Shown: positions 53,041 through 59,657, counted from the stretch's first letter. The stretch is 64,000 nucleotides of DNA from Haloplanus sp. HW8-1 (GCF_023703795.1 NZ_CP098518.1:1488001-1552000); one strand, 5' to 3'. Numbers and translations: made by a program. Notes: generated by a model not told the origin, from the letters alone.

Positions 53041-54537
53041 ATGGCAAACGACGTTCCCGAGACGGATCCCTTTTCGTCGAAACTGCAGGTACCGGAGGCA
53101 CTGACGTTCGACGACGTGCTCCTCCGCCCGATGGAGAGTCACGTCGAACCCGACGAGGCCGACGTGTCGACGCGAGTGTCCACGAACGTCACCCTCAACA
53201 TCCCCATCCTATCGGCCGCGATGGACACGGTGACCGAGAGTGACCTCGCGATCGCGATGGCTCGCAAGGGGGGGTTGGGCGTGCTCCACCGCAACATGAC
53301 CGTCGAGGAGATGGACGTCGAGATCGAGCGGGTCAAACGCGCCGACGAACTGGTGATCCGCCGGGACGACGTGGTGACGGCCGACCCGGACCAGACGGTC
53401 CAGGAGGTCGACGAGATGATGGAAGGGGAGGGCGTCAGCGGCGCGCCGGTCGTCGACGACGACGACGTGGTGTTGGGGATCATCTCCGGCACCGACATCC
53501 GGCCGTACCTCGAAGTCGGCGAGTCCGACGAGGTACGCAAGGCGATGACCGACGAGGTCATCACCGCCACGGAGGACGTGACCGCTCGCGACGCACTCGA
53601 ACTCATGTACGATCACAAGATCGAGCGGGTGCCGATCGTCGACGGGGAGGACCGCCTCGTCGGCCTCGTCACGATGCAGGGGATCCTCCATCGGCGGGAA
53701 CACGAGAACGCCGCGCGCGACGACGACGGCGCCCTCCGGATCGGCGTCGCCGTCGGTCCCTTCGAGGACGACCGGGCAGTCGCCGCCGACGACGCCGGTG
53801 CGGACGTGCTCTTCATCGACTGTGCACACGCCCACAACCGGAACGTGATCGACAGCGCGCGTGCGATCGGCGAGACGGTCGACGCCGACGTGGTCGTCGG
53901 CAACATCGGCACCCGCGAGGCCGCGGAAGCGGTCGTCGACTTCGCCGACGGCGTGAAGGTCGGCATCGGTCCGGGGTCGATCTGTACGACGCGGGTCGTC
54001 ACCGGCGCGGGGATGCCACAGATCACCGCCGTCTCCGAGGTGGCGGACGTCGCCAGCCGACACGACGTGCCGGTCATCGCCGACGGCGGCATCCGCTACT
54101 CCGGCGACGCGATCAAGGCCGTCGCGGCGGGTGCCGACGCGGTCATGCTCGGGTCGTACTTCGCGGGCACGAAGGAAGCGCCGGGCCGGGTCATCACCAT
54201 GAACGGCAAGAAGTACAAGCAGTACCGCGGTATGGGATCGGTCGGCGCGATGCGATCGGGTGGCGGCGACCGATATCTGAAGGAGGAAGACGACGAAGAG
54301 GGGTTCGTCCCGGAGGGCGTCGAGGCGGCCACCCCCTACAAGGGGACGCTCGCGTCGGAGCTCCACCAACTGGTCGGCGGCATGAAGTCGGGGATGGGAT
54401 ACGTGGGCGCGGCCACGCTTCCCGAGTTCAAGCAGCGCTCCCGGTTCGTCCGCGTCTCCGCCGCGGGACAGACCGAGGGTCACCCACACGACGTGATGAT
54501 CACCGACGAGGCACCGAACTACAGCCCACAGGAGTGA
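53041..54537 (+). CDS. guaB: Inosine-5'-monophosphate dehydrogenase
   Basis: This 498-residue enzyme converts IMP to XMP, the first committed step to GMP. The TIM barrel is interrupted by two CBS domains (~100-215). The catalytic Cys315 is in [13 protein letters not shown], with the flap around [15 protein letters not shown] (~395). The ATG at 53041 gives [20 protein letters not shown], typical of haloarchaea. A ~177-bp divergent region separates it from the lyase gene. Confidence 0.97.
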
Positions 54538-54660: not shown

Positions 54661-55245
54661 ATGAGCGACGATACCCCCCTCGTCCTCGTCGTCGAGGACG
54701 AACGTGACCTAGCCGAACTCTACACGACGTGGCTCGCCAAGTCCTACCGCGTGCGAACGGTGAACGACGGTCGAGCGGCGCTCGACGAACTCGACGACGA
54801 AGTCAGCGTCGTACTACTGGATCGACGGATGCCGGACCTCTCCGGCGACGAAGTCCTCGACGCGCTCCACGAACGGGGACTCGACTGCCGTGTCGCGATG
54901 GTGACGGCCGTCGAACCCGACACGGACGTGATCGACATGGGCTTCGACGATTACCTCGTCAAGCCGGTGTCCAAAGAGAAACTGACCCGCACGGTGGCGA
55001 ACTTGCTCGTCCGCGACGAGTACGGCGAGGGTGTCCGCAGGCTCTTCTCGCTCGCCTCGAAGAAAGCCCTGCTCGAATCGGAGACGAAGACGAACGCGCT
55101 CGAGGAGTCCGAGAAGTACCAGGGACTGCTCGACGATATCGAGAGTCTCCGGGCGGAACTCGACGACAAGCTCGCCCAGCTCAGCGAGGACGGAGACCTG
55201 ACAAGAATATATCAGGATCTCGGCGAAGACGGCAGCAAAGACTAG
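54661..55245 (+). CDS. Response regulator with HalX domain
   Basis: This 194-residue protein has a receiver domain with acidic pair VVEDERD, phospho-acceptor Asp54 (VVLLDRRMPD) and Lys near 102 (YLVKPVSKE). A HalX domain follows (~118-185), a helical module found only in haloarchaea. The ATG at 54661 is chosen over one 14 codons upstream because of the TATATAG-like box ~60 bases before and the usual N-terminus. No sensor kinase is adjacent. Its placement near the CHAT genes may be functional. Confidence 0.92.
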   Translation: MSDDTPLVLVVEDERDLAELYTTWLAKSYRVRTVNDGRAALDELDDEVSVVLLDRRMPDLSGDEVLDALHERGLDCRVAMVTAVEPDTDVIDMGFDDYLVKPVSKEKLTRTVANLLVRDEYGEGVRRLFSLASKKALLESETKTNALEESEKYQGLLDDIESLRAELDDKLAQLSEDGDLTRIYQDLGEDGSKD

Positions 55246-55384
55246 TTAGTTAGACGACACTATTGCGGTGCGATTCGTTTTTCGATCCCCGTAGAGCCGT
55301 TGAGTCGGGGTGATCTTCGGCATCCGAAGTTTATGTCAGCCATCATCCGATTTAATTGATTATATTTACTATCAGATATTCTCG

Positions 55385-55397
55385 AAAAATTATATTT
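55385..55397 (+). promoter_or_regulatory. TATA promoter of the 47-residue peptide gene
   Basis: AAAAATTATATTT is centred ~32 bases upstream of the ATG at 55424, the spacing of a leaderless haloarchaeal promoter. The surrounding 55330-55400 is unusually AT-rich. Confidence 0.6.
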
Positions 55398-55423
55398 CTC
55401 TGCCGGCGGACAGGTCAGTTGCA

Positions 55424-55567
55424 ATGTCCGAAAGTGACAGCGGCACGGTGGCAGCGTACCTGAACGACAACCCGCGGATGATGGGCGTCCTGTTCACGAT
55501 GCTCCTGCTCCTCTCGCAGGCCGGCACCGTGGCAGCGAGCAACGGTGGCGGGATCTCGGGTCCCTAA
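55424..55567 (+). CDS. DUF7503-like 47-residue hydrophobic peptide
   Basis: This is a very short protein starting MSESDSGTVAAYLNDNPRMM with one hydrophobic helix (~19-37, GVLFTMLLLLSQAGTVAAS in part) and a Gly-rich end. I recall similar peptides, called DUF7503, in multiple copies in haloarchaeal genomes, often near CHAT or DUF7504 genes; this is unverified. Its own TATA promoter and clean stop support it. The stop overlaps the CHAT gene's stop by four bases, convergent. Function unknown. Confidence 0.72.
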   Translation: MSESDSGTVAAYLNDNPRMMGVLFTMLLLLSQAGTVAASNGGGISGP

Positions 55568-57684
55568 AGGTCGGAGACGTCGAGTTCGTCGCTCCAGACG
55601 AGCGAGCCATCGATTTTCACCGGCACCGCTTCCAGCGAGAGAAACTGCTCCAGTTCGGTACGGTCGACCTCGAACGTCTTCGAGGTGCCCGACCAGAGGT
55701 GATACTCGTCGACGTCGTTGAGCCACGGCATCACCAGACTTCCCATCCCGTACGACGTCGAGGGGTACGTCTCCCACTCCAGTTCGTAGCCGTCGCCACA
55801 CCGACGGAGCGAACAGACGTTGGGTGGACTCCCGTCGGTCCGGGCAAGCGAGAGACTACTGTCGCCGATGATGGTGTACTGATCGCCGATGATCGAGTCG
55901 CTGCGAGCGACGTCGAGGGCGCTTCCGACGGTGAATCCCCGGTTGAACAGACGGGCCAACATTCGGCCCATGCGGATGGCGCCGCTGTTGATCACGTCCG
56001 AGAGCGTGACGATGCCCGCGATGGCCCCCGCGTCGATGAGCGCCGACCCCTGTTCGTAGGACTGGCAGGCGTTGAGCAGAAAGGCATCGAGCCCCGCCGT
56101 CTCGAGCGTGGTGGCGTCGAGTCGACCGTCCGCACACTCGAACCCCGCCGCGTCGATGTGGCCGATGTAATGCAGGAGGTCCGACTCGGCCGAGAGGACC
56201 TCCCGTAGTTCCGACCGCCGGAGGTCGTGGTGGACACGCACGTCGAAGGGGAGTTTCTCACGGGAGCCGTACACCTCGTCGACCACGTCCCGTTCGTCGG
56301 CCATCCGGGGGTCGTTGCAGACGACCGTGATCCCGATGTCGCCGTCGGCGGGCGACCGGTCGAGGCGGTTGTAGAAGGCGTCGGTGGTGGCCTTGCTGGC
56401 GCCGATGGGCGCTCCCTCACCGACCCAGGACTGCTCTAGGGAGTCGGTCGTCTCCGGCTGAACGTACGACCGTGCGGTCCCGTCGGTCGACGCGCTCCGG
56501 GTGAACGTCGGGTCGCGGAAGAACTCGTCCGCGGCGGTCGTCTGGACCGCCGAACTCGGCTCGGGTTGGTCCTGTGGCGTCCGGACCACCGCCAGGTCGT
56601 TCGTCACGAACGGCAGCAGTTCGACGTTCTCGGGTGTGGGGGCGACGTGTGACGTGAGCCGCCACTCCGGGAGAGCGTCCTCGACGGCGCCGAAGGGAAT
56701 CGAGAGGTACTCCTCCAGTTGGGTCGCGAGCGACTGATCGTACAACCACCCGAAGTCGAGGTCGAGATCCGTCTCGACGGCCGTACGCTCGTGGAGGTCG
56801 ACGGAGTAGTACCCCTCCGTCCGCGTCACGCAGTCGAGGAAAAAGGTCTGCTTGAGGACGCGTTCGACCTCCGTTTCGAACCCGCGTACCGTGTTCAGGT
56901 CGTGTTCGAACCCCACGTCGGTCACGAGGCGGGGGCGGTCGCCCGGAACCACGTCGGCGGCCAGGTAGTACGCGAGCGGGGCTGCCACGTAGATCGACCG
57001 ATACTCCGGCGGGAGTTCGAGTCGGACGCCGGTGTCGGGGGAGACCACTCCCTCCGGAACCTCGAGACGGTCGCCGAGTTCGACCAACGGCGGATGTCCC
57101 CGGAGCGTCGGATACGACCGCTCCGGCGAGACGGTCTTGAGCGCCGAGGGGAACTCGGAGACGGCGGCCATCACGTCCACGGGATCGTCCGTAGTCGTGA
57201 GGGTGGCGGCCGGACCTTCGTGGTGGGAGCGGGCCCCGACGCGGACCGCCCGCTCCCCGTCGAACTCGACGCGCGTCCGGGTGAGATCCGAGGCGACCGT
57301 CACGGCCCCCTCGACACGGAGGTAGATCTTGATCGGGCCACAGAGCTCCAGGCTGTAGCTTCCCGGCGGGAACTCCTCGTGGGCGAAATGTTCGGTTTCC
57401 GCGAGCATCTCGCCGGCGTCGTCACGGACACAGACCGAGACGACCGTCGGGAGTTCGATCGCCTCGGCGTCGACGGCCACGGCCGCGTCGACGGGGAACC
57501 GATGGCCGTCCGGATCGACCGGGGTCGGCGACGCCGGCCGGTCGGTGAACAGTCGGAACTGGTTGCGTTCGATCAGGTCGGTGACGATCAGTCCCGACTC
57601 GTCGTCGAGCGTCGTGAACGAGACTTCGAGGGACTCACCGTCCGCCTCGAAGGTCGAGTCGTTCGAACGCTCGGATCGACTCAT
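55564..57684 (-). CDS. CHAT domain protein (caspase-like peptidase candidate)
   Basis: This 706-residue protein has an N-terminal half of no recognised family and a C-terminal CHAT domain of the caspase-related clan. The catalytic pair is visible: His509 in LLHYIGHIDAAGF and Cys540 in LLNACQSYEQG, with DVINSGAIRMGRMLARLF following. It is probably a cysteine protease or regulator. The ATG at 57684 (MSRSERSND) is preferred to a GTG 10 codons upstream. The next gene upstream, a DUF7504-like gene, is on the same strand 60 bases away. Confidence 0.84.
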   Translation of the reverse strand: MSRSERSNDSTFEADGESLEVSFTTLDDESGLIVTDLIERNQFRLFTDRPASPTPVDPDGHRFPVDAAVAVDAEAIELPTVVSVCVRDDAGEMLAETEHFAHEEFPPGSYSLELCGPIKIYLRVEGAVTVASDLTRTRVEFDGERAVRVGARSHHEGPAATLTTTDDPVDVMAAVSEFPSALKTVSPERSYPTLRGHPPLVELGDRLEVPEGVVSPDTGVRLELPPEYRSIYVAAPLAYYLAADVVPGDRPRLVTDVGFEHDLNTVRGFETEVERVLKQTFFLDCVTRTEGYYSVDLHERTAVETDLDLDFGWLYDQSLATQLEEYLSIPFGAVEDALPEWRLTSHVAPTPENVELLPFVTNDLAVVRTPQDQPEPSSAVQTTAADEFFRDPTFTRSASTDGTARSYVQPETTDSLEQSWVGEGAPIGASKATTDAFYNRLDRSPADGDIGITVVCNDPRMADERDVVDEVYGSREKLPFDVRVHHDLRRSELREVLSAESDLLHYIGHIDAAGFECADGRLDATTLETAGLDAFLLNACQSYEQGSALIDAGAIAGIVTLSDVINSGAIRMGRMLARLFNRGFTVGSALDVARSDSIIGDQYTIIGDSSLSLARTDGSPPNVCSLRRCGDGYELEWETYPSTSYGMGSLVMPWLNDVDEYHLWSGTSKTFEVDRTELEQFLSLEAVPVKIDGSLVWSDELDVSDL

Positions 57685-57744
57685 CTCGTATAGTTCCTTC
57701 GGCGTCGCGCACAAAAGCGTATTGTCATCCCGTTGTCTAGTGTG

Positions 57745-58458
57745 TCACGGTCGATCACCGACCGGGAGCCAGTCCGACGTGATGTCCCGATCCCGGAAGT
57801 GCCACCGTTGGTGCAGGTCGTCCCCGTCGACCTGGAGTTCGACGGTGGCGTCGAACAGCGGTTCGAACAGTCCGACGGCCTCCGAATCCACGGCCCGTGG
57901 GAGCCGGAAATGCACCAGCCCGGACACCGATCTGGCCTGCGCGATGACCACGTGCAGGAACCGAAACGCGACCTCGCGACCGTGTGTGGCGAGCACCGTC
58001 GGGAGACAGTCGAAGGCCATCCGGAACTCCGCCGGTTCGAGGCCGCCCGCGAACAGGTCGAACTCTTCGATCACGTCGGCGATCGTCGTCCCGAGGCCGC
58101 GAATCGAGTCGTCGACGACGTGGGTTCGCGGCGTCATCTCGTCGAACGAGTCGGCCACTGCGGCGCTGCGTGCCCGCTCGCCACGGGAGATCACGCGTGC
58201 GTACTCCGCGGAGAGCGGACCGGTCTCGCGAAGCCGACGGACCGCGCTCTCCGGGTTCGGCTCCGGCGTCACGACGAGTCGACGCCGCGGCGGATCGGCG
58301 TCCGGATCGCCGAGCATCGTCCTCGACGCCTTCGCGAACAGTTCTTCCGGCACTGACCCGACGACGAGAAGCGCGCTTCCCTGCTCTTTCAGCGTTGCTA
58401 GGGCGTGGGCGAAACTGATCCCCTCGTCGTCGGGGCCCATCCCACCACCCGCGACCAT
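57745..58458 (-). CDS. DUF7504-like protein (RecA/KaiC-like fold without P-loop)
   Basis: This 237-residue protein has alternating strands and helices, including ALATLKEQGSALLVVGSVPEE and VTPEPNPESAVRRL, that resemble a KaiC/RecA-type fold. No Walker A (GxxxxGKT) is present, so it likely does not hydrolyse ATP. DUF7504-type proteins are my recollection of halobacterial signalling partners; unverified. It is upstream of the CHAT gene on the same strand and could be its partner or regulator. It starts with ATG at 58458. Confidence 0.66.
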   Translation of the reverse strand: MVAGGGMGPDDEGISFAHALATLKEQGSALLVVGSVPEELFAKASRTMLGDPDADPPRRRLVVTPEPNPESAVRRLRETGPLSAEYARVISRGERARSAAVADSFDEMTPRTHVVDDSIRGLGTTIADVIEEFDLFAGGLEPAEFRMAFDCLPTVLATHGREVAFRFLHVVIAQARSVSGLVHFRLPRAVDSEAVGLFEPLFDATVELQVDGDDLHQRWHFRDRDITSDWLPVGDRP

Positions 58459-58517: not shown

Positions 58518-59657
58518 TCACCGGTCGTCGAGGAACCGCTCGATGCGGTTCATCGCCTCCTTCAGTTCCGACAGACCCGTCGCATAGGAGACACGGAGGT
58601 GTCCGTATCCTTCATCGCCGAAGACGCGGCCGGGCACCACCGCGACACTCTCGGCCTGGAGCAGATCCTCCGCGAACTCCTCGTCGTCGTAGGGCGCCTC
58701 GGGAAAGACGTAGAACGCCCCTGTCGCCTCGAAACAGTCCAGCCCCATGTCCCGGAAGCGAGAGACGACGAACCGCCGCCGCCGGTCGTACTGCGTGCGC
58801 ATCTCGGCGACGTCGTCGTCGCAAGACTCCAGTGCCTCCAGAGCGGCGTGTTGGGCCGTCGTCGGCGCCGAAAGCATCGTATACTGGTGGATGCGGTTCA
58901 TCGCGTCGATGGCCTCGGATGGTCCGAGCGCGTACCCGAGTCGAAGCCCCGTCATGGCGTAGGCCTTCGAGAACCCGTTGATCACGACGGTCCGCTCGCG
59001 CATCCCGGGCAGGGTCGCGATGGAGGTGTGCTCACCCTCGTAGGTCAGCGCAGCGTAGATCTCGTCCGAGAGGACCGTCAGGTCGTGTTCGCGCGCGAAG
59101 GCCGCGATCTCGCCGAGTTCGTCCCCGCTCGCCGTCGCTCCCGTCGGATTGTTCGGATAACAGATCAGCAGTACCTCGGCGTCCGCGGCGCCGGCACGGT
59201 CGAGATCGTCGTAGGTGAGGACGAAGTCGTTCTCCGGACGCGTCGACACCGGGAGAGGGTCCCCGCCGGAGAAGCGCACACCTGGGCCGTAGGAGATGTA
59301 CGCCGGTGACTGGATCGCGACGGCGTCGCCAGGGTCGACGAGGGCACGAAGCGCCAGATCGACCGCTTCGCTCGCCCCCGTCGTCACCAGAATCTCCTCG
59401 TCGGGGTCGTAGTCGAGACCGTACCGCGCGACGTGTTCGGCGATGGCCTCACGCAGTTCGTAGAGCCCCCGATTGGTGGTGTAGGAGGTGCGCCCACGTT
59501 CGAGAGAGTGGATGGCGGCCGCCCGCGCCTTCCACGGCGCGCTGAAATCCGGCTCTCCGACGCCGAGCGAGATGACGTCGTCCATCTCCTCGGCGAGTTC
59601 GAAGAAACGTCGGATCCCCGACGGCGGCGTCGATCTGGCGCGCTCCGATAGCTTCAT
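58518..59657 (-). CDS. PLP-dependent class I/II aminotransferase
   Basis: This 379-residue enzyme has the aminotransferase fold: TSYTTNRGLYELREAIAEHV (~58), TGASEAVDLA (~93), YPNNPTGA (~167), SDEIYAALTY (~197) and the PLP Lys231 in NGFSKAYAMTGLRLGY. It probably transfers amino groups among aspartate, glutamate or aromatic amino acids. The ATG overlaps the upstream Lrp stop by four bases, a common haloarchaeal arrangement that suggests regulation by amino-acid availability. Confidence 0.94.
   Translation of the reverse strand: MKLSERARSTPPSGIRRFFELAEEMDDVISLGVGEPDFSAPWKARAAAIHSLERGRTSYTTNRGLYELREAIAEHVARYGLDYDPDEEILVTTGASEAVDLALRALVDPGDAVAIQSPAYISYGPGVRFSGGDPLPVSTRPENDFVLTYDDLDRAGAADAEVLLICYPNNPTGATASGDELGEIAAFAREHDLTVLSDEIYAALTYEGEHTSIATLPGMRERTVVINGFSKAYAMTGLRLGYALGPSEAIDAMNRIHQYTMLSAPTTAQHAALEALESCDDDVAEMRTQYDRRRRFVVSRFRDMGLDCFEATGAFYVFPEAPYDDEEFAEDLLQAESVAVVPGRVFGDEGYGHLRVSYATGLSELKEAMNRIERFLDDR

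Follow-up and report, generated by a model that had tools for sequence, protein, structure and literature searches.

A DUF7503 peptide as the probable cognate ligand of a caspase-like CHAT protease homologue in haloarchaea

A 64,000-nucleotide stretch of the Haloplanus sp. HW8-1 genome (NZ_CP098518.1:1488001-1552000, hereafter the window) carries at positions 54,661 to 58,458 a compact group of four genes, encoding a HalX response regulator, a hydrophobic peptide, a CHAT protease homologue and a RecA/KaiC-like protein. Which of these genes belong together, and what would so small a peptide do beside a protease? All four genes of the original prediction were confirmed, with unchanged coordinates. 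The peptide gene (55424..55567, plus strand) encodes 47 amino acids (MSESDSGTVAAYLNDNPRMMGVLFTMLLLLSQAGTVAASNGGGISGP) and belongs to Pfam family DUF7503 (PF24335, 4.8e-22; 77.7 bits versus a cut-off of 27). The CHAT gene lies on the minus strand (55564..57684) and encodes 706 amino acids from the ATG at 57684; a TTG at 57714 is also open. The two genes converge until their stop codons overlap, with the peptide TAA at 55565-55567 (+) and the CHAT TAG at 55564-55566 (-). Our analysis suggests a two-gene module, made of a caspase-like CHAT protease and a small dedicated ligand, in which the peptide would be a docking tether or scaffold that controls the protease. We give this reading a probability of about one half.

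In order to see how constant this arrangement is, we surveyed 146 genomes of the order, and found DUF7503 in 122, the CHAT protein in 129, and DUF7504, the family of the RecA-like neighbour, in 141. Among the matches listed, the genes lay tail to tail in 96 of 97 CHAT matches with a peptide within 2 kb. Further peptides had a convergent CHAT gene in 39 of 40 cases, the remaining one being at a contig end. Counted from the protease, about 247 of 254 non-redundant CHATs with intact His and Cys had a convergent small open reading frame (ORF) at their 3' end, of which 233 were of a helix type, 9 of a repeat type, 4 soluble with an -SGP end, and 1 masked by N; in the named loci with enough flank, a hidden Markov model recovered the helix type in 67 of 72. 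The pairing is kept over 50 genera and between paralogues. No convergent peptide was found beside any of eight CHAT paralogues that lack His/Cys and share the N-terminal domain; all eight come from one large sister genus (g2) and hence are not eight independent events. The proposal that CHAT, peptide and RecA-like genes would stay together in other genomes thus held strongly for the first two, whereas DUF7504 is a part-time neighbour, whose gene immediately precedes CHAT in the same orientation in 34 of the 72 named loci. The CHAT-peptide pair appears to be undescribed: a literature search, which was not exhaustive, found no paper naming DUF7503 and none tying CHAT domains to haloarchaea.

The peptides align as a leader, an [NH]P[RK] motif (retained in 224 of 230), a hydrophobic helix with an Ala-rich, AxA-like end, and a short tail that ends in Gly-Pro (GP) in 208 of 233 helix-type peptides. 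The membrane helix predicted earlier is present in the window peptide as such a hydrophobic helix, and is followed by the tail SNGGGISGP (55538..55564, +). In 26 orthologues of genus g2, the ratio of nonsynonymous to synonymous diversity (pN/pS) was 0.11 in the leader, 0.68 at four tail positions and 0.13 in the last four residues. As 0.68 is below 1, we do not claim positive selection on the tail. Paralogues within one genome bear different tails. The leader of the same orthologues also showed low synonymous diversity (pS 0.25, versus about 0.8 in the tail), possibly an RNA-level or codon constraint at the gene start. At loci L201, L202, L205, L209, L297 and L303 (a Haladaptatus-type clade and others), the tail ends in -GTIR, -TTG, -TID or similar, not in GP, and CHAT Gly514 is altered in part of them.

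The proposed module is also supported by coevolution between tail and protease. We computed mutual information with average product correction over 205 CHAT-peptide pairs (effective number 151), leaving out the repeat-type Haloplanus loci. CHAT residues are numbered from the Met at ATG 57684; the alignment starts at residue 2, so that its columns 508, 539 and 653 are residues 509, 540 and 654. Trp654 of CHAT (codon 55723..55725, -) and tail position -6 ranked second among all column pairs, including those within CHAT, and were followed by 681/-8, 622/-8, 622/-7, 687/-8, 645/-3, 650/-4, 620/-5 and 652/-6. Nearly all top pairs map to the C-terminal domain of CHAT, after the catalytic domain (residues ~616-691; 55612..55839, -). 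When tails were shuffled within CHAT clades, the 654/-6 score was never reached in 300 rounds (largest null value 6.65 versus 8.12 observed); the other pairs were individually weaker, and fell under the family-wise threshold. Across 91 disjoint close pairs, residue 654 changed in 38 of the 53 with a change at tail -6 versus 4 of the 38 without (p=3e-9, the best of 673 columns; runner-up 3.9e-5). The residues follow a rule, in which a large aromatic residue at 654 goes with Gly at -6, and a smaller one with Ser, Thr or Ala. Within Haloplanus, G at -6 went with W (9/9) and S or A with F or H (4/4), whether the peptide was of the helix or the repeat form, and these 13 of 13 sequences amount to at least two independent joint changes. 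Given such residue-level covariation, the tail is very probably a cognate ligand that the C-terminal domain of its own CHAT recognises. Hence the earlier idea that the CHAT protein acts on a nearby small peptide gains support as a functional relation; cleavage does not, since the signal falls within the C-terminal domain and not at the catalytic site, and since the peptide can do without its membrane helix.

That the helix is dispensable was seen in Haloplanus itself. All 12 Haloplanus genomes have a convergent ORF at the same place, in the helix form in the window genome and two others, and helix-less with tandem units in the other nine. There, the counterpart of the window tail is multiplied as units of ~13 amino acids, [YFMS][TN]ADGN[GS][GS][GA][IV]SGP, in 2 to 14 or more copies, and the tree demands at least two switches between the forms. 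In most species, all core units of a genome encode one and the same protein sequence (pN 0 at pS 0.20-0.58), with a small pN of 0.009-0.049 among units in three repeat-form species. A DNA-level cause of the repeats was rejected, because synonymous sites vary between units whose protein sequence is preserved. In Halococcus, the ORFs lack the helix and end in -CTYSGP with a single soluble tail, apparently an independent loss of the helix. Taken together, the helix-less forms of Haloplanus and Halococcus make the tail, not the helix, the constant element. Convergent helix-less ORFs ending in -ACTYSGP or -NSCTYSGP were noted at loci L098-L102, L182 and L183 (Halococcus and relatives).

Could the four genes nevertheless be independent neighbours, kept together by chance or because overlapping 3' ends constrain the DNA? 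In favour of independence, the convergent overlap spans a few bases, and these genomes often have HalX and DUF7504 genes at other places too (the window genome has 11 DUF7504 matches). It is contradicted by the pairing over many genera and paralogues, by purifying selection on the repeat protein and by position-specific coevolution, and we consider it highly improbable.

Tandem identical units under purifying selection also call to mind the alpha-factor-type precursors of yeast, which are tandem-repeat peptide precursors. By this comparison the peptide would be both substrate and precursor; CHAT would dock on its tail and cut it, a short Gly-Pro-ended signal peptide would be released, and the Haloplanus arrays would be polyprotein precursors holding many copies of one signal. 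The likeness to these precursors consists in identical short units, 2-14 times repeated and differing only synonymously. The conserved leader and hypervariable tail, the AxA-like helix end, the different tails of paralogues within a genome and the retained [NH]P[RK] motif fit this explanation as well. However, the repeat forms have no signal, helix or basic residue between units, so that Arg/Lys-specific cleavage between them was rejected; unlike alpha-factor-type precursors, the Haloplanus repeat form carries no secretion signal, and a signal function is hypothetical. Moreover, no conserved transporter or receptor was noticed nearby, the coevolution lies in the C-terminal domain rather than at the active site, and the pN/pS ratio of the tail is below 1. 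On these grounds we hold a precursor role to be rather unlikely.

The nature of the protease bears on a further alternative. The window protein scored 17.3 bits with the Pfam CHAT profile, under the 24-bit cut-off, and its profile found no match among solved structures by sequence even at E 10, so that a fold search was needed. An AlphaFold 2 model from 49 homologues (predicted local distance difference test, pLDDT, 87; predicted template modelling score 0.89) matched gingipain R, SAVED-CHAT, separase, the anti-sigma factor DdvA, TPR-CHAT/Craspase and caspase-3 in Foldseek, which points to the caspase-haemoglobinase fold. The His509-Cys540 pair reported earlier is correctly numbered if ATG 57684 is the start; all 102 aligned homologues have both residues (codons 56158..56160 and 56065..56067, -). 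Judged by modelled fold and residues, the protein is a divergent CHAT member of peptidase clan CD, with predicted proteolytic activity. None of 262 CHAT proteins had an N-terminal signal, which would place CHAT in the cytosol together with the helix-less tails. The closest named relatives of the window gene are from Haloplanus (80-83% identity). CHAT copies occur on 25 PLSDB plasmid records (Halorussus, Haladaptatus and others), nearly always annotated as 'hypothetical protein'; megaplasmids hold many CHAT-peptide pairs, and some genomes reach 8 peptide and 12 CHAT matches. Frameshifts split some CHAT genes at L067, L086 and L091, where the peptide is intact. Loci L263-L272 (genus g2) hold a second paralogue that has the N-terminal domain in common (PTLRG[YH]PP, RTEG) and a CHAT domain devoid of His/Cys, a pseudo-peptidase without a peptide.

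A peptide that accompanies active CHAT and is missing beside dead CHAT might be a dedicated inhibitor, securin-like or antitoxin-like, of a harmful protease, and tandem copies would then raise its dose. One of the Foldseek relatives is separase, for which an inhibitor partner is known. In addition, Gly514 of CHAT, which adjoins the catalytic His, is invariant with GP-ended tails (217/217) versus 64% otherwise, a weak lead that the active site may be within reach of the GP end; this correlation is, however, confounded by phylogeny. About seven intact CHATs also lack a peptide, and the genes are convergent with separate promoters, unlike a toxin-antitoxin operon. A TATA-like element, TTATAT (55390..55395, +), lies 29-34 nucleotides upstream of the peptide ATG, and an AT-rich peak occurs at ~-36 to -26 in 232 peptide genes; the element suggests that the peptide gene is transcribed from a separate promoter, into an mRNA with a short leader or none. 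We regard inhibition as unlikely. The AT-rich stretch 55320-55423, between the HalX and peptide genes, is strongly conserved in Haloplanus (in-frame reading LIDYI.YQIFSKNY), and is probably a promoter or regulator site.

We therefore return to the tether or scaffold. In this mechanism the tail would bind its own CHAT as an extended chain, docking on the C-terminal domain, and each paralogous pair would consequently recognise its own partner. The peptide would hold and concentrate the protease, at the membrane by its helix or in the cytosol by a multivalent string of tails, and tethering would set the timing of protease activity. We prefer this mechanism because helix and tail string are two ways to localise or cluster a protease, and because caspase-type enzymes are often activated by proximity. 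More tentatively, cognate C-terminal peptide tags may run a whole class of archaeal caspase-like proteases, with distinct pairs working in parallel in one cell, one of which would explain the activity known from Haloferax. In this bolder reading, which we hold to be possible though doubtful, the short variable Gly-Pro tail would serve as an address for the C-terminal domain of its protease. Its carrier would be a membrane microprotein with a single helix in some cases, and in others a soluble chain of identical tags, from 2 to 14 or more.

Several points weigh against the tether or scaffold. The choice of a scaffold over an inhibitor or a substrate is a matter of judgement. The main problem concerns the helix form, as the basic residues N-terminal to the helix argue, by the positive-inside rule, for a tail outside the cell and away from a cytosolic CHAT. 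The Halococcus peptides have only a single soluble tail. Of the ~7 of 254 intact CHATs without a peptide, five have none, and L112 and L131 have only an apparently chance GP-ended ORF. When the clades were split, the 654/-6 signal was strong in one half only (9.9 versus 1.1). Finally, convergent 3' ends are close in DNA, and linkage could add to the coevolution signal; as its sole cause it is unlikely, since leader positions at a similar distance show no such cluster and the CHAT neighbours of 654 are far weaker.

We also compared the module with known systems. Craspase (type III-E TPR-CHAT with Csx30) shares a CHAT-fold cysteine protease (8d9g, 2.8e-4) and a dedicated adjacent partner. In contrast, the window module has no CRISPR or TPR part, and its neighbours are the response regulator, DUF7504 and housekeeping genes; its partner is a peptide of 40-50 amino acids or a tail array, for which contact would be at the C-terminal domain and cleavage is only conceivable. 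A CHAT domain of the SAVED-CHAT/CalpL type (8tl0, 5e-7) was one of the nearest matches among solved structures, but the window protein has no SAVED domain, and no CRISPR or cyclic nucleotide context was seen. Separase and securin share the clan CD fold (5fby, 1e-6) and a small, fast-evolving partner; a sequence relation between securin and the DUF7503 peptide was neither found nor expected, and inhibition by the peptide is hypothetical. In bacterial CHAT-gasdermin systems, as here, the CHAT gene adjoins a putative target, whereas a gasdermin-like protein is absent from our locus and the partner's one short helix can be lost.

The other two genes of the block are facultative. The response regulator (54661..55245, +; receiver and HalX domains, Pfam 3e-19 and 6e-18) lies upstream of the peptide gene, a position that it holds in 20 of the 72 named loci, among them all 12 from Haloferax. 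The DUF7504 protein (57745..58458, -; PF24336, 5.2e-52, 177 bits) has the KaiC/RecA fold (AlphaFold 2 pLDDT 91.5; Foldseek, KaiC C1 domain, 1.6e-8), and Walker A was absent from all 34 CHAT-adjacent copies, in agreement with the original prediction. The full gene order was seen in Haloferax, Halobellus, Halogeometricum, Salinigranum and Haloplanus, and the block is flanked in the window by a guaB-like inosine monophosphate dehydrogenase gene (ending at 54537) and an aminotransferase gene (58518-59657). Although its genes are real, the compact block is not a single unit, since it consists of two convergent pairs, regulator and peptide on the plus strand and DUF7504 and CHAT on the minus strand; with DUF7504 and HalX facultative, a four-gene operon was rejected. 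Where present, the two proteins could feed a stress signal into the module, which is speculative. The defence part of the proposed stress or defence response found no support: PADLOC gave no match for CHAT, DUF7504 or the repeat peptide, and only weak receiver-domain matches for the regulator, and no relative was found in viral contigs. A defence island or phage origin was rejected on these negatives.

What might such a module mean for haloarchaea? Extracts of Haloferax volcanii showed the highest caspase-like activity reported for a unicellular microbe, and the protein responsible was, according to the authors, still to be identified (PMC3615174). We found the full four-gene locus in 12 Haloferax species, and DUF7503 in H. 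volcanii itself. Going by these gene contents, the CHAT protease is a candidate for the H. volcanii activity. Caspase-like activity has also been reported in archaea outside the order, where the CHAT family was not found, so the module would explain the haloarchaeal part at best. Collectively, if our reading is true, a protease and a microprotein coevolve here at the level of single residues, and a membrane helix and tandem multivalency replace one another in nature. The module would also give a working context to DUF7503 and DUF7504, the families of the peptide and the KaiC-like protein, whose Pfam entries carry neither a function nor a link to CHAT, and it would be easy to examine in Haloferax, a genetically tractable archaeon.

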